The translations under genes were made by a program, and so were the position numbers. The notes under the pieces were generated by a model. It made no database searches. It was not told the origin of the DNA and saw only the letters and a program-made list of their open reading frames with translations. From NCBI RefSeq assembly GCF_002564025.1, contig NZ_PDJH01000001.1:1798001-1862000 (forward strand): a DNA stretch of 64,000 nt, read 5' to 3'. Every line of letters starts with the position of its first letter. Position 1 is the first letter of the stretch. The DNA is from Flavimobilis soli. Its GTDB lineage: Bacteria; Actinomycetota; Actinomycetes; Actinomycetales; Cellulomonadaceae. Below are positions 23,512 to 34,129 of this stretch, piece after piece.

Positions 23512-24525
23512 TTGGCACGCATCACGATCGCGGACATCGCGCGCCAGGCAGGCGTGTCGACGGGCGCCGTCTCGTACGCGCTCAACGATCGTCCCGGGGT
23601 CTCCGACGAGACCCGGGCGCGCATCGTCAAGATCGCTGCGGACCTCGGCTGGGCGCCGAGCTCGGCGGCGCGCTCCCTCTCGGGGGCCCGCTCCGAGACC
23701 GTCGGACTGGTCCTCGCCCGTGATCCGGCGACGCTCGGCTTCGAGTCGTTCTACATGCAGTTCATCGCTGGTATCGAGACGGTCCTGTCCGAGCGTGGCT
23801 ACGCGCTGCTGCTGCAGGTGGTGCCCGATCTCGAGACGGAGATGCACACGCTCCGGCACTGGCGGGCGGCGCGGCGTGTGGACGGCGTGGTGCTCGTGGA
23901 CCCTCGGATCAGCGACCCACGCATCGACCTGCTGGCAGGGCCAGACCAGCTCCCGGTCGTCGTCGTCGGAGACACGGCGCTCGCGGGTGGTCTCACGAAC
24001 GTGTGGACGGATGACGCTGGCGCGATCCGCGAGAGCGTCCGCTACCTCAGCGCGATGGGGCACCGCCGGATCGCGCGCGTCGCGGGTCTGCGGGATTTTG
24101 GGCACACGCACATCCGTGACGAGGCCTTCCGGGCGGAGGTCGAGGAGCTCGGGCTGGACGGGACGATCGCCCGGACGGACTACACGGCGGTGCAGGGGGC
24201 GACGGCGACGCGCAACCTGCTGACGGCGGGGGAGCGGCCAACCGCGATCGTCTACGACAACGACGTGATGGCGCTCGCGGGCCTCGGTGTGGCGCGCGAG
24301 CTGGCGCTCGAGGTACCGCGTGATCTCTCGGTCATCGCGTGGGACGACTCGCCGTTGTGCGAGGCGACGTACCCGCAGCTGTCGGCGTTGAGCCACGACG
24401 TCGTGCGGTACGGCGGTCATGTGGCGCGCCGTCTGTTCGAGCAGATGGACGGGGCGCCGCGAGGGAGCTTCCTGGACTCGACGCCGGCGCTCAGGCCTCG
24501 GGGCACGACCGGTCGCTGCGGCTAG
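23512..24525 (+). CDS. LacI family regulator of the mannan operon
   Basis: A 337-aa repressor with N-terminal HTH and hinge (TIADIARQAGVSTGAVSYAL, then APSSAARSLSG) and a sugar-binding domain. The start is a TTG at 23512, 6 nt after AAGGAGG. It lies 157 bp before a manno-oligosaccharide-type ABC system on the same strand, and dyads resembling LacI operators lie in that gap. It probably controls that operon in response to a manno-oligosaccharide or mannose; the effector is inferred from the neighbours. Confidence 0.9.
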   Translation: MARITIADIARQAGVSTGAVSYALNDRPGVSDETRARIVKIAADLGWAPSSAARSLSGARSETVGLVLARDPATLGFESFYMQFIAGIETVLSERGYALLLQVVPDLETEMHTLRHWRAARRVDGVVLVDPRISDPRIDLLAGPDQLPVVVVGDTALAGGLTNVWTDDAGAIRESVRYLSAMGHRRIARVAGLRDFGHTHIRDEAFRAEVEELGLDGTIARTDYTAVQGATATRNLLTAGERPTAIVYDNDVMALAGLGVARELALEVPRDLSVIAWDDSPLCEATYPQLSALSHDVVRYGGHVARRLFEQMDGAPRGSFLDSTPALRPRGTTGRCG

Positions 24526-24634: not shown

Positions 24635-24682
24635 CGAGCCGGGATGGGCCGGCGCAGTCAACGACGACAGACGGGAAGCACC

Positions 24683-25996
24683 ATGGCAAAGACGCACACG
24701 GTGGCCGCGCTCGCGGCAGTCACCGCGCTCACCCTCAGCGCCTGCGGAGGAGGCGGCGACACCTCCGCGACCACCACCTCCGCCGGCGACCCCACCAAGA
24801 TCTCCGGGGAGATCACGGTCCTGACCAACCGGACCGACCTCGTCGACACCGTCCTCAAGGACTACGTCACCGACTTCAACGCGCTGTACCCGGACGTGTC
24901 CGTGAAGTTCGAGGCGCACACCGACTACGAGGGCGAGGTGTCGATCCGCCTCAACACCGAGGAGTACGGAGACGTGCTGCTCCTGCCGAACGAGGTCACC
25001 AAGGACAAGTTCCCGACCTACTTCGAGCCACTCGGCCAGGTCGACGACTACGTCGACACCTACCGCTTCGTGCGCAGCGAGGGGTCCCTCGACGGGACCC
25101 TCTACGGCATCGCGATCACGGGCAACGCGAGCGGCTACGTCGTCAACACGCGCGTCATGGAAGAGGCCGGCATCACCGCCCCGCCCAGGACCCCCGCCGA
25201 GTTCCTCGCGGCCCTCGACGCCGTCAAGACCAAGACAGGCGCCACGTACTACACCAACTACAAGGACGGCTGGCCGCTCTCGCAGTGGCAGGGCAACCAG
25301 GGCGTCGTCGCCGGACCGGACACGGTCGCCCTCCGCGACGCCGACGACGCGCCGTGGACCGAGGGCAAGGAGATGTACGCCCTCGACAGCCTGCTCTTCG
25401 ACATCGTCGCGAGCGGCCTCTCCGAGCCCGACCCGACCACCACCAACTGGGAAGAGTCCAAGGTCAAGCTCGCCACGGGGGAGATCTCCGCGATGGTCCT
25501 CGGGTCCTGGGCCGTCACCCAGATCCAGGACGCCGCCGAGGCCAACGGTGCCTCGGCCGACGACATCTCCTTCTGGCCCATGCCCTTCGAGACCGACGGC
25601 AAGCTCCGCTCAACCGTCTCGGGTGACTACAAGATCGGCATCAACAAGCACTCCAAGAACAAGGCGGCCGCCCGGGCCTGGCTCGACTGGTTCGTCGACA
25701 AGTCGGGCTACGCGTTCGACCAGGGCGGCGTCTCGCCGCGGCTCGACGGCGACACGCCGGACACGCTCAAGGCCTTCGAGGAGGTCGGCGCCGAGTGGGT
25801 CGACCTCAACCCCGGGACCCCGGGCCAGGAGTCGCTCGACTCCGACATCTACAACGAGGCAGAGATCGACCTCTGGGGCGACAGCTATCGCCGCAAGCTC
25901 GTCGACATCGCACGCGGTGCGGAGAAGGGCGACAAGGCGTCCTACTTTGCCGACCTCAACCAGCGTTGGGCTGACGCTCGCGCCGCGATCGGCTGA
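24683..25996 (+). CDS. ABC transporter sugar-binding lipoprotein
   Basis: A 437-aa extracellular solute-binding protein (family 1): signal peptide with lipobox LSAC (Cys21), Gly-rich linker, then the two-lobed fold beginning GEITVLTNRTDLVDTVLKDY. Aromatic residues in WPLSQWQGNQG and FWPMPFE could stack on sugars. The downstream mannosidase and mannanase indicate a manno-oligosaccharide ligand (inference). A perfect hairpin follows the gene and probably makes it the most abundant product of the operon. Confidence 0.92.
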   Translation: MAKTHTVAALAAVTALTLSACGGGGDTSATTTSAGDPTKISGEITVLTNRTDLVDTVLKDYVTDFNALYPDVSVKFEAHTDYEGEVSIRLNTEEYGDVLLLPNEVTKDKFPTYFEPLGQVDDYVDTYRFVRSEGSLDGTLYGIAITGNASGYVVNTRVMEEAGITAPPRTPAEFLAALDAVKTKTGATYYTNYKDGWPLSQWQGNQGVVAGPDTVALRDADDAPWTEGKEMYALDSLLFDIVASGLSEPDPTTTNWEESKVKLATGEISAMVLGSWAVTQIQDAAEANGASADDISFWPMPFETDGKLRSTVSGDYKIGINKHSKNKAAARAWLDWFVDKSGYAFDQGGVSPRLDGDTPDTLKAFEEVGAEWVDLNPGTPGQESLDSDIYNEAEIDLWGDSYRRKLVDIARGAEKGDKASYFADLNQRWADARAAIG

Positions 25997-26010: not shown

Positions 26011-26043
26011 GTGCGGGGCCCTGCCGCCAGCAGGGCCCCGCAC
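26011..26043 (+). terminator. Intra-operon hairpin after the binding-protein gene
   Basis: Perfect 14-bp GC-rich stem (26011-26024 with 26030-26043), 5-nt loop, between the binding-protein and first permease genes. Such a hairpin usually protects the upstream mRNA or partly terminates, giving excess binding protein. Confidence 0.65.
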
Positions 26044-26082
26044 GCACCCCCACCCGCACGCACCCCGGAGACGAGCGAACGT

Positions 26083-27003
26083 ATGGCCCTGCTGGCACTG
26101 AACACACGACGCGGAACGCGCTCAGGCGCTCCACGCACCCGCCGAGGATGGCGCGTCACGCCCTGGCTGTTCCTCCTCGTGCCGCTGGTTCTCCTGATCA
26201 CCTTCACGTACCTGCCGGTGGTGAACATGATCAGCTACAGCTTCACCTCGTGGGACGGCCTCGACCCCGAGATGAAGAACGTCGGATGGGACAACTACGT
26301 CCGCATCTTCACGCGGCCCGAGATCCTCCGCGTGTTCCTCGTGAGCACCTACTACCTCGCTGGTGCCATCCTCCAGCTCGTCCTCGCCCTGTACTTCGCG
26401 GTGATCCTCAGCTTCAGCACGCGGTTCAGGAACTTCTTCAAGGGAATCCTCTTCTTCCCCTACCTGGTCAACGGCGTCGCGATCGGCATCGCGTTCCTGT
26501 TCTTCTTCCGCCCAGACGGCACGCTCGACGTCCTGCTCGGGATCCTCGGGTTCACCGATACCCCGCTGTGGCTCGGCGATCGCGAGGTGGCGAACTACTC
26601 GCTCGCCGCGACGTCCGTGTGGCGCTACATGGGACTCAACTTCGTGCTCTTCCTCGGGGCGATCCAGTCCATCCCGGAGGAGATCTACGAAGCCGCAGAC
26701 CTCGACGGCGCCACCGGTTGGCACAAGGTGCGGCACATCATCGTCCCCGCCATCAGCCAGATCATCGGCCTGTCGCTGATCCTCGCGATCTCCGGCGCGC
26801 TCTCGGTGTTCGAGATCCCCTTCATCATGACCGGCGGCGCCAACGGCACCGAGACGTTCGTCATCAAGACGGTCGATACGGCCTTCAAGTTCAGGAAGTT
26901 CGGGCTCGGGTCCGCGATGGCCGTGGTGCTGCTGCTCTTCGTGGTGATCATCTCCGTCGTCCAGAAGAAGCTGTTCCCCGAGGAGAAGGGAGACCTGGTG
27001 TGA
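26083..27003 (+). CDS. ABC sugar transporter permease (MalF-like)
   Basis: A 306-aa permease with six membrane helices. The EAA loop is present (EEIYEAADLDGATGWHKVRH, about residues 203-222), contacting the ATPase. The ATG at 26083 follows a GGAG site; an earlier in-frame ATG lies in the intergenic hairpin and is not used here. No ATPase gene is found in the operon, so a shared MsiK-type ATPase encoded elsewhere probably energises it, as is usual in actinobacteria. Confidence 0.93.
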   Translation: MALLALNTRRGTRSGAPRTRRGWRVTPWLFLLVPLVLLITFTYLPVVNMISYSFTSWDGLDPEMKNVGWDNYVRIFTRPEILRVFLVSTYYLAGAILQLVLALYFAVILSFSTRFRNFFKGILFFPYLVNGVAIGIAFLFFFRPDGTLDVLLGILGFTDTPLWLGDREVANYSLAATSVWRYMGLNFVLFLGAIQSIPEEIYEAADLDGATGWHKVRHIIVPAISQIIGLSLILAISGALSVFEIPFIMTGGANGTETFVIKTVDTAFKFRKFGLGSAMAVVLLLFVVIISVVQKKLFPEEKGDLV

Positions 27004-27878
27004 GCACCGGGACCACCACCGCCGCTGCCCGCTGGAGCCGGAGCGTCGCGCCCGTCGCTGGACCGCTCGGCAAGACGCTCAAGTACCTCTCGCTCGCGGT
27101 CGCGAGCGCGGCTGCGATCATCCCGCTCGTGACGCTGCTCTTCGCGGCGCTCAAGACGAGCGAGGAGTTCGCCCGCACCGGACCGCTGGACATGCCGGAG
27201 AACTGGCTGAACCTCTCGAACTTCGCGACCGTGTTCGTCGAGGGAAAGATGCTCCAGGGCTTCCTCAACACGTCGATCATCCTGGTCGTCGCGCTCACCG
27301 GCACGATCATCATCGGGACGATGACCGCCTATGCGGTCGACCGGTTCAGCTTTCGCGGCAAGCGACTCGTCATGGGCCTGTTCCTCGCCGCAACCCTCGT
27401 GCCTGCCGTGACGACGCAGGTCGCGACGTTCAAGATCATCAACGCCCTGTCCCTGTTCAACACGCGGGGATCGGTGATCGTGCTGTTCCTCGGGACGGAC
27501 ATCGTCGCGATCTACATCTTCCTGCAGTTCATGAAGTCGATCCCGCGCTCTCTCGACGAGGCGGCGATGCTCGACGGCGCCAACCGGTTCGCCATCTATG
27601 CGCGGATCATCTTCCCGCTGCTGAGGCCCGCGATCGCCACGGTGATCATCATCAAGGGAATCGCGATCTACAACGAGTTCTACCTCCCGTTCCTCTACAT
27701 GCCGTCGCAAGATCTCGGCGTGATCTCGACGTCGCTCTTCCGTTTCAAGGGCCCCAACGGCTCCGACTGGGAGCTGATCGCGGCGTGCACCGTCCTCGTC
27801 ATCGTCCCCACCCTGATCGCGTTCCTCGCGCTGCAGCGACAGATCTACTCAGGCCTGACCTCCGGAGCCACCAAGTGA
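27000..27878 (+). CDS. ABC sugar transporter permease (MalG-like)
   Basis: A 292-aa permease with six helices and an EAA loop (RSLDEAAMLDGANRFAIYAR, about 180-199). It forms the channel with the MalF-like partner. The GTG start at 27000 overlaps the previous stop (GTGA) and its own stop overlaps the GTG of the mannosidase gene, so transport and hydrolysis are translationally coupled. Confidence 0.93.
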   Translation: MSTGTTTAAARWSRSVAPVAGPLGKTLKYLSLAVASAAAIIPLVTLLFAALKTSEEFARTGPLDMPENWLNLSNFATVFVEGKMLQGFLNTSIILVVALTGTIIIGTMTAYAVDRFSFRGKRLVMGLFLAATLVPAVTTQVATFKIINALSLFNTRGSVIVLFLGTDIVAIYIFLQFMKSIPRSLDEAAMLDGANRFAIYARIIFPLLRPAIATVIIIKGIAIYNEFYLPFLYMPSQDLGVISTSLFRFKGPNGSDWELIAACTVLVIVPTLIAFLALQRQIYSGLTSGATK

Positions 27879-30382
27879 CCCACAGCTCGACCTTCCCGAC
27901 CCCGGCGCTCTCGGCGCAGCGCGTACGGGACCTCCACGACGGCTGGCGGCTGCGGGCCGTGTCCGGACCCGTGCCGGAGCACGTCGCCACCGACGACGTC
28001 CCGGCCACCGTGCCCGGATCCGTGCACACCGACCTGCTCGCCGCCGGACGCATCCCCGACCCGTACCTCGACGACAACGAGCGTGTGCTCGCGTGGATCG
28101 GCCGGACCTCCTGGGAGTACCGCACCACGTTCGCGTGGGCACCGGACGGTCGCGACCGCCACGACCTGGTCTTCGAAGGGCTCGACACGTTCGCGACCGT
28201 GACCCTCAACGGTGTCCACGTGGCGACGACGGCGAACATGCACCGCTCGTGCACGCTCGACGTCCGCGAAGCGCTTCGGGAGGGGAACAACGAGCTCGTC
28301 GTGACGTTCGCGGCGCCCGTGCCGTATGCCGACGCGCAGTCCCTCGCTCTCGGGTACCGCCCCCAGACGGGCAACACGCACCCGTTCAACGCGGTGCGCA
28401 AGATGGCGTGCTCGTTCGGCTGGGACTGGGGGATCGACACCGCGACGAGCGGCATCTGGAAGCCCGTGCGGCTCCGCTCGTGGTCCACGGCCCGGCTCGC
28501 CACCGTCCGCACCGAAGCGCTCCTGCCCGACGGCGCAACGGAGGGTGCGCGCGGCGTCGTGCGCGTGAGCGTGGAGGTCGAGCGCGTCTCCGACGCGCCT
28601 CTCCAGCTTTGCGTCGCCGTCGGTAGCGCCCGGACGAGCGTCGAGGTCCCGGCGGGGGAGACGACGGCGAGCGCCGACGTCATGCTCGAGGCCGTCGCGC
28701 TGTGGTGGCCGCGCACCCACGGGGCGCAGCCGCTGTACGACGTCGCGGTGACGCTCGAGACGGCCGACGGCACGGCGCTGGACGCGGCGCACCGCCGCGT
28801 CGGGTTCCGCACCGTCCGCCTCGAGATGGAGCCCGACGCCGACGGGACCAGCTTCACGTTCGTCGTCAACGACGAGCCCGTCTGGATCCGCGGAGCCAAC
28901 TGGATCCCCGACGACGCGTTCCCGCACCGCGTCACGCGTGAGCGCTACGCCGCCCGGGTGGACCAGGCAGCCGCCGCGAACATGAACCTGCTGCGGGTCT
29001 GGGGCGGCGGCATCTACGAGTCCGAGGACTTCTACGACGCGTGCGACGAGCGCGGCCTGCTCGTGTGGCAGGACTTCCCCTTCGCGTGCGCCGCGTACTC
29101 CGAGGAGGAGCCGCTGCGCAGCGAGGTCGAGGCGGAGGCTCGCGAGAACGTCGCGCGGCTCGCGCACCGCGCGTCCCTCGCCCTGCTCAACGGGTCGAAC
29201 GAGAACATCTGGGGCTACGCGGACTGGCGCTGGGAAGAGCGGCTCGACGGGCGGAGCTGGGGGATCGGCTACTACCTGGAGCTCCTGCCGGCGATCGTCG
29301 CCGAGCTGGCTCCCGGGACCGCGTACACGCCGTCGAGCCCGTGGTCCGGGAGCATGGACGTGCACCCGAACGACCCCTCGCACGGCGCGATGCACTCGTG
29401 GGAGGCGTGGAACCGTCAGCCGATGCGCGTCTATCGCGACGACGTGCCGCGCTTCATGGCGGAGTACGGCTGGCAGGGCCCGCCCACCTGGGCGACCCTC
29501 ACCCGCGCGATCAGCGACTCGCCGCTGACGCCCGACTCGCCGGGCATGGTGGTGCACCAGAAGGCGGCCCAGGGCAACGACAAGCTCGCGTTCGGGCTTG
29601 TCCCGCACTTCCCGCTACCGACCGACATGGACCTGTGGCACTGGGCCATGTCCCTCAACCAGGCACGCGCCCTGCGCGTGGGCATCGGGCACCTGCGCTC
29701 GCACGCGCCCGTGTGCATGGGCTCGGTCGTCTGGCAGCTCAACGACTGCTGGCCCGTCACGTCCTGGGCCGCGGTCGACGGTGACGGTCGACCGAAGCCG
29801 TTGTTCTACGAGCTGGCCCACCAGCACGCCGACCGGCTCGTGACGGTGCAGCCGCGTGAGGACGGTCTCGTCGTCGCCCTGCACGACGACAGTGCCGTGC
29901 CGTGGATCGGCACGCTGACCGTTCGGCGTCTCACGTTCGACGGCCAGGTCCTCGCCGAGCACACGCACGACGTCGAGGTCCCCGCCCGGGGCATCGTCAC
30001 CCTCCAGGTGCCGGACGACGTCGCGACGCCGTCCGACCCGGCCGCCGAGCTGATCGTCGCGAGCCTCGGCGACGACCGCGCCACCTGGTTCTTCGCTGAG
30101 CCCCGCGAGGCACGCCTCCCTGAGCCGGCCTTCGACGTGACGACGGCTACCCGGCCCGGCGCGACGATGGTCACCGTGACCACGGACGCGCTCGTCGTCG
30201 ACCTCGCCCTCCTCGTCGACAAGATCCACCCCGACGCCCGCGTGGATGACATGCTCGTGACGTTGCTCCCGGGCGAGTCCGTGACCTTCACCGTCACGGC
30301 GCCGATCGCCCTCGACGCGGCGGCGCTCGCGGACCCTCGCGTGCTCCGCCACGCCGGCCAGCTCGTCGACAGGAGAATCTGA
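27875..30382 (+). CDS. GH2 beta-mannosidase (intracellular)
   Basis: An 835-aa glycoside hydrolase family 2 enzyme of the beta-mannosidase type. A jelly-roll sugar-binding domain (about 10-180, with FGWDWGIDTATSGIWKPV) and Ig-like domain are followed by a TIM barrel with acid/base Glu443 in NGSNEN and nucleophile Glu530 in MAEYGWQ. There is no signal peptide, so it acts on imported manno-oligosaccharides, releasing mannose from non-reducing ends. The GTG start overlaps the permease stop. Confidence 0.93.
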   Translation: MTHSSTFPTPALSAQRVRDLHDGWRLRAVSGPVPEHVATDDVPATVPGSVHTDLLAAGRIPDPYLDDNERVLAWIGRTSWEYRTTFAWAPDGRDRHDLVFEGLDTFATVTLNGVHVATTANMHRSCTLDVREALREGNNELVVTFAAPVPYADAQSLALGYRPQTGNTHPFNAVRKMACSFGWDWGIDTATSGIWKPVRLRSWSTARLATVRTEALLPDGATEGARGVVRVSVEVERVSDAPLQLCVAVGSARTSVEVPAGETTASADVMLEAVALWWPRTHGAQPLYDVAVTLETADGTALDAAHRRVGFRTVRLEMEPDADGTSFTFVVNDEPVWIRGANWIPDDAFPHRVTRERYAARVDQAAAANMNLLRVWGGGIYESEDFYDACDERGLLVWQDFPFACAAYSEEEPLRSEVEAEARENVARLAHRASLALLNGSNENIWGYADWRWEERLDGRSWGIGYYLELLPAIVAELAPGTAYTPSSPWSGSMDVHPNDPSHGAMHSWEAWNRQPMRVYRDDVPRFMAEYGWQGPPTWATLTRAISDSPLTPDSPGMVVHQKAAQGNDKLAFGLVPHFPLPTDMDLWHWAMSLNQARALRVGIGHLRSHAPVCMGSVVWQLNDCWPVTSWAAVDGDGRPKPLFYELAHQHADRLVTVQPREDGLVVALHDDSAVPWIGTLTVRRLTFDGQVLAEHTHDVEVPARGIVTLQVPDDVATPSDPAAELIVASLGDDRATWFFAEPREARLPEPAFDVTTATRPGATMVTVTTDALVVDLALLVDKIHPDARVDDMLVTLLPGESVTFTVTAPIALDAAALADPRVLRHAGQLVDRRI

Positions 30383-31617
30383 TGCTGCCCTGGACCTCGC
30401 GCCCGACCCACCTCGCGTGGCTCGAGCAGCACACCCGTGACCTCCTCGACTTCGGCCGCGCCGGCCTCGTCGCACCGGGTGGCGGGGCCGCCTACCTCGA
30501 CGACGACGGCCGTCCCGACCCGAGCCAGGGCGTCCAGGCGTGGATCACCTGCCGCACCGTCCACGTGTACTCGCTCGGTGCGCTGCTCGGCGTGCCCGGC
30601 TGCGCTCCCGTCGCGGCGGGTGCGCTCGCGGGCCTCACGGGGGTGCTGCACGACGACGAGCATGGCGGCTGGTTGCACTCCGTCGACGCAGCGGGCGTCC
30701 CCGACAGGGCTTCGGGCAAGTCCTGCTACGACCACGCGTTCGTGCTGCTCGCGGCGTCGAGCGCGACTCTCGCCGGGCTGCCCGGCGCGCGCGACCTTCT
30801 CGACGAGGCGTGCGCCGTCTACCTCGACCGGTTCTGGGACGACGACGCCGGCCGCGCCGTCGACACGTGGGACGTGACCTTCTCCGAGCTCGACGGGTAC
30901 CGCGGCATCAACGCGAACATGCACTCGGTCGAGGCGATGCTCGCCGTCGCCGACGCGACCGGTGACCCCGCGTGGCGCGAGTGTGCCGCGCGTATCGCCG
31001 CGTTCGTCGTCGAGCTCGCGGCCGAGCACGACGGACGCCTGCCTGAGCACTTCGACGCCACGTGGACCGCGGACCTCGAGCTCAACGCCGACCGCCCCGG
31101 CGACCAGTTCAAGCCCTACGGCGCGACGATCGGGCACGGCCTCGAGTGGTCCCGGCTGCTCCTGCATGTCGAGGGCGCGCTCGGCGACGACGCGCCGGAC
31201 GACCTGCTGCCTGCCGCCGTCGCGCTCTTCGACCGTGCCGTCGCCGACGGGTGGGCCGTCGACGGCGCCGACGGCTTCGTCTACACGACCGGCTGGGACG
31301 GGACGCCCGTCGTGCGCGACCGCATGCACTGGGTCGCCGCCGAGGCCACCGCCGCCGCCGACGCGCTCCACCGCCGCACCGGCGAGCAGCGCTACGCCGA
31401 CCTCTACGCGACGTGGTGGGACCACATCGTCACCTACGTCGTCGACCATGAGCGCGGCTCGTGGCACCACGAGCTCGACCCGACGCTCGCGCCAGCCGGC
31501 ACGGTCTGGCCGGGCAAGCCGGACCTCTACCACGCCGTCCAGGCAACGCTCCTGCCGCGCCTCCCGCTCGGCCCGTCGATCGCGCGCGCCGTCGCGGACG
31601 CGGAGGTGGCGTCATGA
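30382..31617 (+). CDS. AGE-family sugar isomerase, probable mannose isomerase
   Basis: A 411-aa (alpha/alpha)6-barrel protein of the N-acylglucosamine 2-epimerase / YihS group. His-containing motifs NANMHSVEAMLA, IGHGLEWSRLLL and MHWVAAEATAAA match the catalytic-site regions of aldose-ketose isomerases. With a mannosidase before it and a fructokinase-type domain after it, the likely reaction is mannose to fructose. It starts at an ATG sharing one base with the previous stop (TGATG). Other aldose-ketose pairs remain possible. Confidence 0.88.
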   Translation: MLPWTSRPTHLAWLEQHTRDLLDFGRAGLVAPGGGAAYLDDDGRPDPSQGVQAWITCRTVHVYSLGALLGVPGCAPVAAGALAGLTGVLHDDEHGGWLHSVDAAGVPDRASGKSCYDHAFVLLAASSATLAGLPGARDLLDEACAVYLDRFWDDDAGRAVDTWDVTFSELDGYRGINANMHSVEAMLAVADATGDPAWRECAARIAAFVVELAAEHDGRLPEHFDATWTADLELNADRPGDQFKPYGATIGHGLEWSRLLLHVEGALGDDAPDDLLPAAVALFDRAVADGWAVDGADGFVYTTGWDGTPVVRDRMHWVAAEATAAADALHRRTGEQRYADLYATWWDHIVTYVVDHERGSWHHELDPTLAPAGTVWPGKPDLYHAVQATLLPRLPLGPSIARAVADAEVAS

Positions 31618-33527
31618 CTCGCTTCCTCGTCATCGGTGAAGCGCTCGTCGACATCGTCCCGGGCGCCGACGGGACGCCCCGCGAGCTCCCGGGCGGCTCG
31701 CTCGCGAACGTCGCGCTGACGCTCGGGCGGCTGGGGCGCGACGTCACGCTCGTGACGTCGCTCGCCGACGACGCGCGCGGCGCGGCCGTGCGGGGCTGGC
31801 TCGAGGCGTCCGGCGTGACCGTCGATGCGCACGCGCCCTCGACCGGCCGCACCTCGACCGCCGCCGTCACGCTCGACGCGCGGGGGGTCGCGTCCTACGA
31901 GTTCGACCTCGCGTGGGAGCTGGGGCTCGTCGACGTCACCCGCGCGGACGTGGTCCACGTCGGCTCGATCGCGACGATCCTCGCACCGGGCGGCTCGGCG
32001 GTCCGCGACGCCGTGCGCCGCGCCCGCGGACGTGCCGTCGTCGGCCTCGACCCGAACATCCGGCCCGCGCTCGTCACCGATCCGCGCGCCGTCCGTGACC
32101 GGATCGAGGAGCTCGTGGCGCTCGCCGACGTCGTCAAGGTGTCCGACGAGGACCTCGCCTGGTTCGCGCCCGGTACCGACCCTGTCGAGGTCGCGCACCG
32201 GTGGTCCGCCTGGGGCCCGGCGCTCGTCGTCGTCACCCGCGGAGGCGACGGTGCCGTCCTGGTCCGTCACGACGGGCGCGTCCTCGACGTCCCGGGTCGG
32301 CGCGTCGACGTCGTCGACACCGTCGGCGCAGGCGACACCTTCATGGGCGCCCTGCTCGACGCGCTGGACGCCCGCGGCGTCCACGGCGCCGACGGCGCCG
32401 CACGGCTGCGACACCTGTCCGACGCCGCGATCGTCACCGCAGCCCGGGCGGCCGCCGCTGCGGCGTCGGTCACCGTCTCGCGTGCCGGCGCGAACCCGCC
32501 GACGCGCGCCGAGCTCGACGCCGCCCTCGGGCCTGTCGCGCCGCCGTCGTTCCCGGGCGCGCCCGTCACGGGCATGACCTGGGGCTGGACGGGCGTGCGC
32601 GGCACGTGGACGGGACCGGCCGCCGACCGGTCGATGGACGAGCTCGCGCCGCTGAACGTCGGCTGGGTGGCGATCGCGTTCGTCGCCCAGCAGGCGACGC
32701 CGACCTCGACCGAGATCGACTTCACCGCCGAGCCCACCGTCACCGACGACGAGGTGCGCGCCGCAGTCCGTGCCGCCAAGGCGCGCGGGCACCGGGTCTG
32801 CCTCAAGCCCGCCGTCGACTCGGCCGACGGCACCTGGCGTGCGTTCATCGGCTTCTTCGACGACGACGTCCCCGGCGAACCCTCCTGGACGCAGTGGTTC
32901 GAGTCCTACACGCGGTTCATCGTCCACCACGCCCGCATCGCCGCCGAGGAAGGCGCCGAGATGCTCTCCGTCGGCTGCGAGATGGTGCGCGCGGACGGGC
33001 GCGAACGCGAGTGGCGCGAGCTGATCGCACAGGTCCGCGCCGTGTACCCCGGCCTCGTCACGTACAACTGCGACAAGTACCAGGAAGACCGCCTGACCTG
33101 GTGGGACGCCGTCGACGTGATCTCGTCGTCGGGCTACTACCCGGCGGGCGCGTGGGAGGCGAACCTCGACCGCATCGAGACCGTCATCGCCAGGGAGGAC
33201 AAGCCGTTCGTGTTCCTCGAGGCGGGCTGCCCCAGCCGCGAAGGATCGCCTGCGCGACCGAACGACTGGTCCCTGTCCGGCGCGCCGTCAGGGGAGGCCC
33301 AGGCGGCCTACCTGGCGGAGATGTTCGAGGCGTGCGCGCGGCGGCCATGGGTCTCCGGCTTCTTCCTGTGGGACTGGCCTGCCGAGCTGTACGCGCCCGA
33401 GGACGCTGCGACCAACGGTGACTACTGCATGTACGCCAAGCCAGGTGCGGCGGTCGTGCGCGACGCCTACGCGACGCTGCGCGCGGGCGCGCGCGTTGCT
33501 ACCTCCGCACCGCCTCCGCTGAGGTAG
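31614..33527 (+). CDS. Fusion: PfkB sugar kinase + GH113-like beta-mannanase
   Basis: One uninterrupted 637-codon frame. Residues 1-305 form a PfkB (ribokinase-type) kinase with the GGSLANVALTLGRLG start and the DTVGAGDTF motif with catalytic Asp241, so probably a fructokinase. A Pro-rich linker leads to residues 321-627, a GH113-like mannanase beginning MTWGWTGVRGTW, with candidate acid/base Glu456 (VGCEMVR) and nucleophile Glu536 (VFLEAGC). The 80-residue spacing equals that of the GH113 type enzyme. No signal peptide. It overlaps the isomerase stop (ATGA). An internal ATG at 32574 could also give separate mannanase. Confidence 0.9.
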   Translation: MTRFLVIGEALVDIVPGADGTPRELPGGSLANVALTLGRLGRDVTLVTSLADDARGAAVRGWLEASGVTVDAHAPSTGRTSTAAVTLDARGVASYEFDLAWELGLVDVTRADVVHVGSIATILAPGGSAVRDAVRRARGRAVVGLDPNIRPALVTDPRAVRDRIEELVALADVVKVSDEDLAWFAPGTDPVEVAHRWSAWGPALVVVTRGGDGAVLVRHDGRVLDVPGRRVDVVDTVGAGDTFMGALLDALDARGVHGADGAARLRHLSDAAIVTAARAAAAAASVTVSRAGANPPTRAELDAALGPVAPPSFPGAPVTGMTWGWTGVRGTWTGPAADRSMDELAPLNVGWVAIAFVAQQATPTSTEIDFTAEPTVTDDEVRAAVRAAKARGHRVCLKPAVDSADGTWRAFIGFFDDDVPGEPSWTQWFESYTRFIVHHARIAAEEGAEMLSVGCEMVRADGREREWRELIAQVRAVYPGLVTYNCDKYQEDRLTWWDAVDVISSSGYYPAGAWEANLDRIETVIAREDKPFVFLEAGCPSREGSPARPNDWSLSGAPSGEAQAAYLAEMFEACARRPWVSGFFLWDWPAELYAPEDAATNGDYCMYAKPGAAVVRDAYATLRAGARVATSAPPPLR

Positions 33528-33553: not shown

Positions 33554-34129
33554 GTGGCTCCTCGACCGGGTGACGAGACGGACGCCGTCGTGCTGGGGTG
33601 GTCGCCCGTCGGCGAGGGCGGCCGCGTGGCGCGCAGGACCTCCTGGTGGTGGGAGGTCGCCTGCGCCCGCGTCCAGGGACGCGCGCCGCAGCACTTGTTC
33701 CACGCGAGCCTGCAGGTCACGACGGCGGGGCGCCGGTACGACGTCGAGCTCGTCCCCGCCTGGGGGACGAGCGAGCGGGACCGCGGCGCCGTCGCGCAGG
33801 GGCCTGTGGGGGCGCGCTGGCTCGGGCGCTCACGGTTCTTCCGCTACGAGGTGCGCACCTGGCCCGACCGGCCGTCGCGTTCCGGCACGGTCCACGAGCT
33901 CAGCCGGGATCCGGACGTCGTCGCGCAGGTCCTCGCGACGGCACCGCAGGTACCGCTGCTCGTGTGGGGGCGTGCCGCCGGACCTTCGGGTGACATCTGG
34001 AGCTCGAACTCGTTCGTGTCGTGGCTGCTCGCCGTGGTCGGCCTGCCGACCGACGTGCCGCCGCCCGACGGCGGCTCCGCACCCGGCTGGACAGCGGGCG
34101 TCGAGGTCGCGCACCTCGGGTTTGGCTGA
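33554..34129 (+). CDS. Conserved-looking protein of unknown function
   Basis: A 191-aa soluble protein starting at a GTG 26 bp after the fusion gene. No known domain is recognised. It has many Trp residues and a C-terminal GDIWSSNSFVSWLLAVVGLP segment that reminds one of permuted papain-like or LRAT-like proteins (a Ser/Asn-rich helix after a short strand), but no Cys is near there. It might be cotranscribed with the mannan operon; the GTG has no strong ribosome site. Function unknown. Confidence 0.6.
   Translation: MAPRPGDETDAVVLGWSPVGEGGRVARRTSWWWEVACARVQGRAPQHLFHASLQVTTAGRRYDVELVPAWGTSERDRGAVAQGPVGARWLGRSRFFRYEVRTWPDRPSRSGTVHELSRDPDVVAQVLATAPQVPLLVWGRAAGPSGDIWSSNSFVSWLLAVVGLPTDVPPPDGGSAPGWTAGVEVAHLGFG

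Follow-up and report, generated by a model that had tools for sequence, protein, structure and literature searches.

The 64,000-nucleotide stretch analysed here (the window: positions 1,798,001 to 1,862,000 of contig NZ_PDJH01000001.1, Flavimobilis soli, assembly GCF_002564025.1) contains a gene that joins a PfkB carbohydrate kinase to an enzyme of glycoside hydrolase family 113 (GH113). An earlier note on this DNA, made from the letters alone, had claimed a continuous gene of 637 codons with these two parts. A single frame is indeed open from the ATG at 31614 to the stop ending at 33527, encoding 637 amino acids, and both Pfam domains are complete. The gene and its parts, in window coordinates, are as follows.

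31614..33527, + strand: PfkB-GH113 fusion gene (reading frame, Pfam, predicted structure)
31614..32513, + strand: PfkB carbohydrate kinase domain, fructokinase-like, residues 1-300; Asp241 codon at 32334-32336
32514..32564, + strand: linker region, residues 301-317, the tail of the last kinase helix and about 12 loop residues (alignment, model)
32565..33488, + strand: GH113 domain, residues 318-625; Glu456 codon at 32979-32981, Glu536 codon at 33219-33221
31602..31607, + strand: Shine-Dalgarno-like GGAGGT, 6 bases ahead of the ATG at 31614
32574..32576, + strand: internal ATG, unlikely to be a start codon; encodes the conserved Met321 of GMTWGW, within strand 1 of GH113 (conservation, model)

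The PfkB profile PF00294 matches residues 1-296 along positions 1-298 of 302 (136.4 bits, E = 1.7e-39, cut-off 25.8), and the GH113 profile PF22612 matches residues 321-609 along positions 1-289 of 289 (437.6 bits, E = 2.8e-131, cut-off 27). Over its full length, the kinase half aligns with PDB chain 7fca, named as a fructokinase (E = 2.8e-64). Asp241 sits within DTVGAGDTF, in which GAGDTF spans Gly238 to Phe243; the Asp of the GAGD motif is the residue we take to be catalytic in PfkB kinases. The GH113 half aligns over residues 318-621 with the solved GH113 enzyme 7dv7 (E = 3.5e-110), in which the counterparts of Glu456 and Glu536 are chain positions 176 and 256, 80 apart; position 176 is Ala in 7dvj and 7dvz. 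The catalytic Asp and the pair of Glu residues 80 apart that the note had proposed thus stand, all three being invariant across 21 aligned fusions (the window protein and the 20 fused clusters described below, among them P0021, a partial protein that ends at residue 560).

An AlphaFold2 model from 21 sequences has a mean predicted local distance difference test (pLDDT) of 82 and a predicted template modelling score (pTM) of 0.87, with lower confidence in parts of GH113, where several ten-residue blocks lie at 53-69. In the model, helix 298-305 ends the kinase, a loop covers 306-317, and strand 318-325 starts GH113. The N-terminus is the first kinase strand (signal peptide judged by eye). Since the kinase requires ATP and the protein starts with this strand, both halves should be in the cytoplasm, which is presumably where the fusion protein resides.

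The fusion is real and inherited, a trait of a clade that extends beyond the window genome. Among the best 120 of 306 protein matches, 20 further clusters carry both domains at 66-94% identity. By the table counts they comprise 109 member sequences, with cluster names that include Cellulosimicrobium cellulans, Cellulosimicrobium sp., Oerskovia flava and O. enterophila, and some of the proteins are publicly named 'PfkB family carbohydrate kinase'. A scan of a collection of species genomes, which required one of two exact peptide patterns and may therefore miss carriers, returned 492 relatives, of which the best 80 loci were kept. Nine of these 80 are PfkB-GH113 fusions, in records of Flavimobilis rhizosphaerae, Cellulosimicrobium cellulans (two), C. 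composti, Oerskovia flava, O. douganii (at a contig edge), O. merdavium, Sanguibacter suarezii and Nocardiopsis coralli. Within the GTDB family of the window genome, 55 of 221 genomes have a GH113 match (56 places are listed, two of them weak, one being the sole match of genome G165), and 11 of the 55, spread over five genera, carry the fusion. Fusions were called from protein matches, as long open frames around GH113 genes do not prove fusion by themselves. In a sample of 396 genomes at the level of the order (35 from the family; at most three candidates scored per genome), at least four match over both domains, and the four listed are all in the family. The GH113 domain of a genome of the same genus (G129) is identical to that of F. 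rhizosphaerae.

These relatives also speak to whether a sequencing or assembly error could have joined two genes. A stop or frameshift at the junction, which the note had proposed to look for in relatives, was sought, and the 20 other clusters read through. One metagenomic cluster, P0029 (388 amino acids), apparently loses the frame right after the kinase, with a remainder that resembles GH113 in the wrong frame; it appears to be a sequencing error or a pseudogene, and it suggests that frame errors do occur in this gene. For the window gene itself, however, the identical architecture in 20 other clusters of several sources, the nine named records and the assembly of the window genome as one contig rule out an artefact for practical purposes.

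Both halves also look to be maintained by purifying selection, as judged from Nei-Gojobori counts against eight fused relatives (loci L039-L045 and L047) and in three further pairs. The non-synonymous rate (dN) is below the synonymous rate (dS) in both halves in all comparisons: against L039, dN and dS are 0.111 and 0.59 for the kinase and 0.120 and 0.45 for GH113, and against L040 they are 0.181 and 0.71 for the kinase and 0.161 and 0.70 for GH113. The 17-residue linker region changes faster (dN 0.231, dS 0.84; dN 0.337, dS 0.92).

The fusion ATG overlaps the stop codon of the upstream gene (ATGA). The note had also suggested that a second start, at 32574, could give free mannanase. The in-frame ATG does exist, but it is very unlikely to yield a separate GH113 protein. 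The Met of GMTWGW is kept in 70 of the 71 loci without a PfkB fusion (L048-L118; Ile in the remaining one), and an in-frame ATG, GTG or TTG lies farther upstream in every one of the 71. No Shine-Dalgarno match of at least four bases lies within the 20 bases preceding 32574, and initiation at Met321 would cut into the model strand 318-325.

The setting within a sugar-use operon, as the note had it, is supported by the genes that precede the fusion, among them those of an ATP-binding cassette (ABC) transporter.

23512..24525, + strand: LacI-family regulator
24644..25996, + strand: ABC solute-binding protein
26011..27003, + strand: ABC permease 1
27006..27878, + strand: ABC permease 2
27872..30382, + strand: GH2 protein, probable beta-mannosidase (label from context; start codon unsettled)
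30382..31617, + strand: AGE-family isomerase, 411 amino acids, YihS/D-mannose isomerase type (profile and PDB matches)

The AGE protein matches PDB chains of the YihS type at about 1e-100, and it retains the conserved His that is replaced by Ala in chain 2zbl. Its best NCBIfam model, over residues 7-405, is D-mannose isomerase NF051846. Identity as a cellobiose 2-epimerase was rejected, with a match of 4.4e-8 against about 1e-100 for the YihS type. Just 3´ of the fusion lies an open frame of 191 amino acids (33554-34129) with no Pfam or NCBIfam match.

Gene trees and gene orders both bear on how the fusion arose. The fused kinases form one clade with support of 100/97 in a tree of 41 rows, of which 13 were selected from the protein matches. 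The GH113 tree, made by a quick method from 85 distinct rows (15 duplicates and pieces below 80% coverage, such as that of O. douganii, were dropped), contains a set of 12 rows with support of 99 that holds the fused GH113 domains and one unfused gene, from Cellulomonas hominis (L048/L123), which branches within the fused group at a fork of weak support. A constraint that makes the fused rows one clade is not rejected (approximately unbiased test, p = 0.364); C. hominis may represent either the closest relative without the fusion or a lineage that lost it. That its gene is a remnant of a fusion, as matches from residue 278 (L048) and 253 (G033) might suggest, was rejected, no kinase remnant being visible; there, GH2 ends in another frame and GH113 begins at an overlapping GTG. 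The fusion probably arose once.

Among the 71 of 80 loci without a PfkB fusion (L049 among them carries GH113 fused to AGE), GH113 directly follows GH2 in 35, most of these being preceded by matches to the same binding protein and permeases. The order in eight of the nine fused loci is binding protein, permease, permease, GH2, AGE, fusion; in the ninth, of Sanguibacter suarezii, the fusion follows a LacI gene. The flanks of the 71 loci, at most 6 kb long, contain no PfkB match at E 1e-10, an absence that reflects flank size, because a wider stretch of Isoptericola chiayiensis (L104, which has the GH113 of G133/L129) has one. There, and in genome G175 (L130), none of the parts is joined to another: AGE and PfkB come first, followed by LacI, the binding protein, two permeases, GH2 and GH113. 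AGE and PfkB are a separate neighbouring pair in five of 16 kinase loci (L129, L130, L131, L139 and L140), which ties the kinase to the product of the isomerase. The six separate kinases inspected end in SR.GANPP or SRPGADPP plus a few residues, so the fused kinase retains its full C-terminus.

These gene orders form a readable series from separate genes to fusion. In the simplest history that they suggest, an AGE-PfkB pair would have been placed between the GH2 and GH113 genes of a pre-existing operon, after which the kinase gene would have run into the GH113 gene; the direction of this rearrangement is our interpretation of present-day orders. The operon with the fusion is also present in Nocardiopsis coralli (L044), which belongs to another family, Nocardiopsidaceae, and its position outside the family of the other carriers suggests that it was likely acquired by horizontal transfer.

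We suggest, with good though not full confidence, that the gene encodes a true bifunctional cytoplasmic enzyme for the use of manno-oligosaccharides, combining a GH113 hydrolase with a fructose-phosphorylating kinase, all activities and substrates being predicted ones. The window genome has no match to GH5 or GH26 (GH134 was outside that search) and holds a single GH113, a gene content that points to probable scavenging of short manno-oligosaccharides by means of the ABC transporter. The beta-manno-oligosaccharides imported by the transporter would arise extracellularly, probably through the activity of other organisms. The GH113 domain at the C-terminus, a putative hydrolase of beta-1,4-mannan or its oligosaccharides, would cleave them to mannose together with the GH2 enzyme, the YihS-like isomerase would convert mannose to fructose, and the N-terminal PfkB domain would convert fructose to fructose-6-phosphate. 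With a YihS/mannose-isomerase-type AGE gene directly upstream, the kinase probably acts on the product of that isomerase. The GH113 domain may either cut within chains or release mannose. Some intracellular GH113 enzymes of gut bacteria are exo-oligomannosidases that release reducing-end mannose, according to PMC8262883, and as little as one step may therefore part the two activities of the fusion. The note had placed these at opposite ends of the pathway; with the isomerase gene adjoining and possibly one step between them, that wording was too strong.

Several observations weigh against this reading, in addition to the frame lost in P0029 and the placement of C. hominis. Although the best NCBIfam model for the kinase half is a fructokinase (NF006957), its score of 133.5 bits is under the curated cut-off of 450, so we class the domain as fructokinase-like only. 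The isomerase likewise falls short of the curated cut-off of NF051846 (432.4 bits against 600), and its match to sulfoquinovose isomerase is about equal to that with other YihS-type chains. No AGE neighbour is found at 11 of the 16 kinase loci, including that of the next-best kinase of the window genome (L142). In Sanguibacter suarezii (L045), the flanks of 6 kb around the fusion contain no AGE or GH2 match. Finally, the window genome encodes a phosphomannose isomerase, which gives mannose another possible route.

The kinase could, in principle, act on another sugar, whether mannose or a ketose other than fructose, for example sulfofructose. PfkB specificity is not certain from sequence, and YihS-type isomerases include sulfoquinovose isomerase. 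We nevertheless consider another substrate unlikely, as the closest solved relative is named a fructokinase and lies far ahead of sulfofructose kinase (9.5e-10 among PDB chains), and the best NCBIfam model, for all its cut-off, points the same way.

The two domains most likely act as independent catalysts, the mechanism probably being that of two ordinary enzymes joined, and the benefit would then be their fixed 1:1 production from one start signal. A more elaborate arrangement, which we think improbable, is that the fusion serves as scaffold of a metabolon that leads from mannose to fructose-6-phosphate. GH113, a docked AGE isomerase and the kinase would be positioned together; mannose leaving GH113 would be isomerised on the spot and then trapped through phosphorylation by the attached kinase. 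PfkB kinases dimerise, and dimerisation would make the mannanase two-headed. In line with such a scaffold, AGE lies directly upstream of the fusion in 10 of the 11 fused genomes of the family, the whole-model pTM is a hint that the domains prefer one arrangement, and GH113 has separately been joined to AGE in Cohnella sp. SGD-V74 and in clusters P0022, P0023, P0025, P0028, P0102 and P0132. However, the AGE domain of those other fusions looks to be of the cellobiose-epimerase kind (P0028 is so named) and not YihS; genome G207, which shares an identical GH113 domain with S. suarezii, encodes AGE and GH2 on another contig; and the GH2 enzyme should also produce mannose. If the scaffold were real, the Cohnella fusions would represent a second solution to the same problem, and the significance of the PfkB-GH113 gene would grow if channelling were shown.

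The titles and abstract openings of the openly licensed papers searched contain no description of a PfkB-GH113 fusion, and the note likewise knew of none; the architecture is apparently undescribed, though built from two known families. The usual partners of glycoside hydrolases are binding modules and other hydrolases. A fusion of a glycoside hydrolase with a sugar kinase must act inside the cell, and it links chain cutting to entry into glycolysis. It also provides a hint of function for about 100 deposited sequences, and suggests a route through mannose isomerase and fructokinase for mannan sugars in actinobacteria.

The gene can be compared with several known systems. A 2022 survey (PMC9032380), whose tree covers 511 GH113 catalytic domains, describes the vast majority of the proteins as having this domain only, a CBM8 protein being the one exception, and the word 'kinase' does not occur in it. 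The survey reports that 14 of 25 soluble GH113 proteins were active and that sequence did not distinguish endo from exo modes, and notes that clade 1 proteins mostly lack signal peptides. The window protein resembles GH113 clade 1 (which 7dv7 represents here) in its whole GH113 domain, catalytic Glu residues 80 apart and probable cytoplasmic location, and differs from the mostly single-domain surveyed proteins in carrying a kinase. The PfkB fructokinases 7fca and 7cf8 match the kinase half at full length and share the GAGDTF/GAGDAF motif with its Asp, whereas their chains are about 300 residues long and have no second enzyme. The mannan pathway of Faecalibacterium and Roseburia, as given in PMC8262883, likewise combines ABC import with an intracellular GH113, but it relies on GH130 phosphorylases and a mannobiose epimerase where the window operon has GH2, a YihS-like isomerase and a fructokinase-like kinase.

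Other GH113 genes have acquired partners of their own. In Cohnella sp. SGD-V74 (L049:5923-8136), GH113 is in frame with a cellobiose-epimerase-like AGE domain, and in 20 other loci that AGE gene is separate, as the next match downstream of GH113. The Cohnella and metagenomic GH113-AGE fusions resemble the PfkB-GH113 gene in joining GH113 to a sugar enzyme that relatives encode next door. In contrast, their GH113 domain is N-terminal (P0022, P0028 and P0132) and their partner is cellobiose-epimerase-like, which makes them a separate event. Further metagenomic clusters (P0123, P0129, P0125, P0134, P0135 and P0130) are candidate fusions of GH113 with NUDIX, an aldo-keto reductase plus ferredoxin, GNAT (acetyltransferase), GAF or a partial ABC ATPase domain. 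The L071 record, which bears the title Planococcus sp. APC 4015, has an operon of the actinobacterial type and falls among Microbacterium in the GH113 tree; it is probably a mislabelled or mixed assembly.

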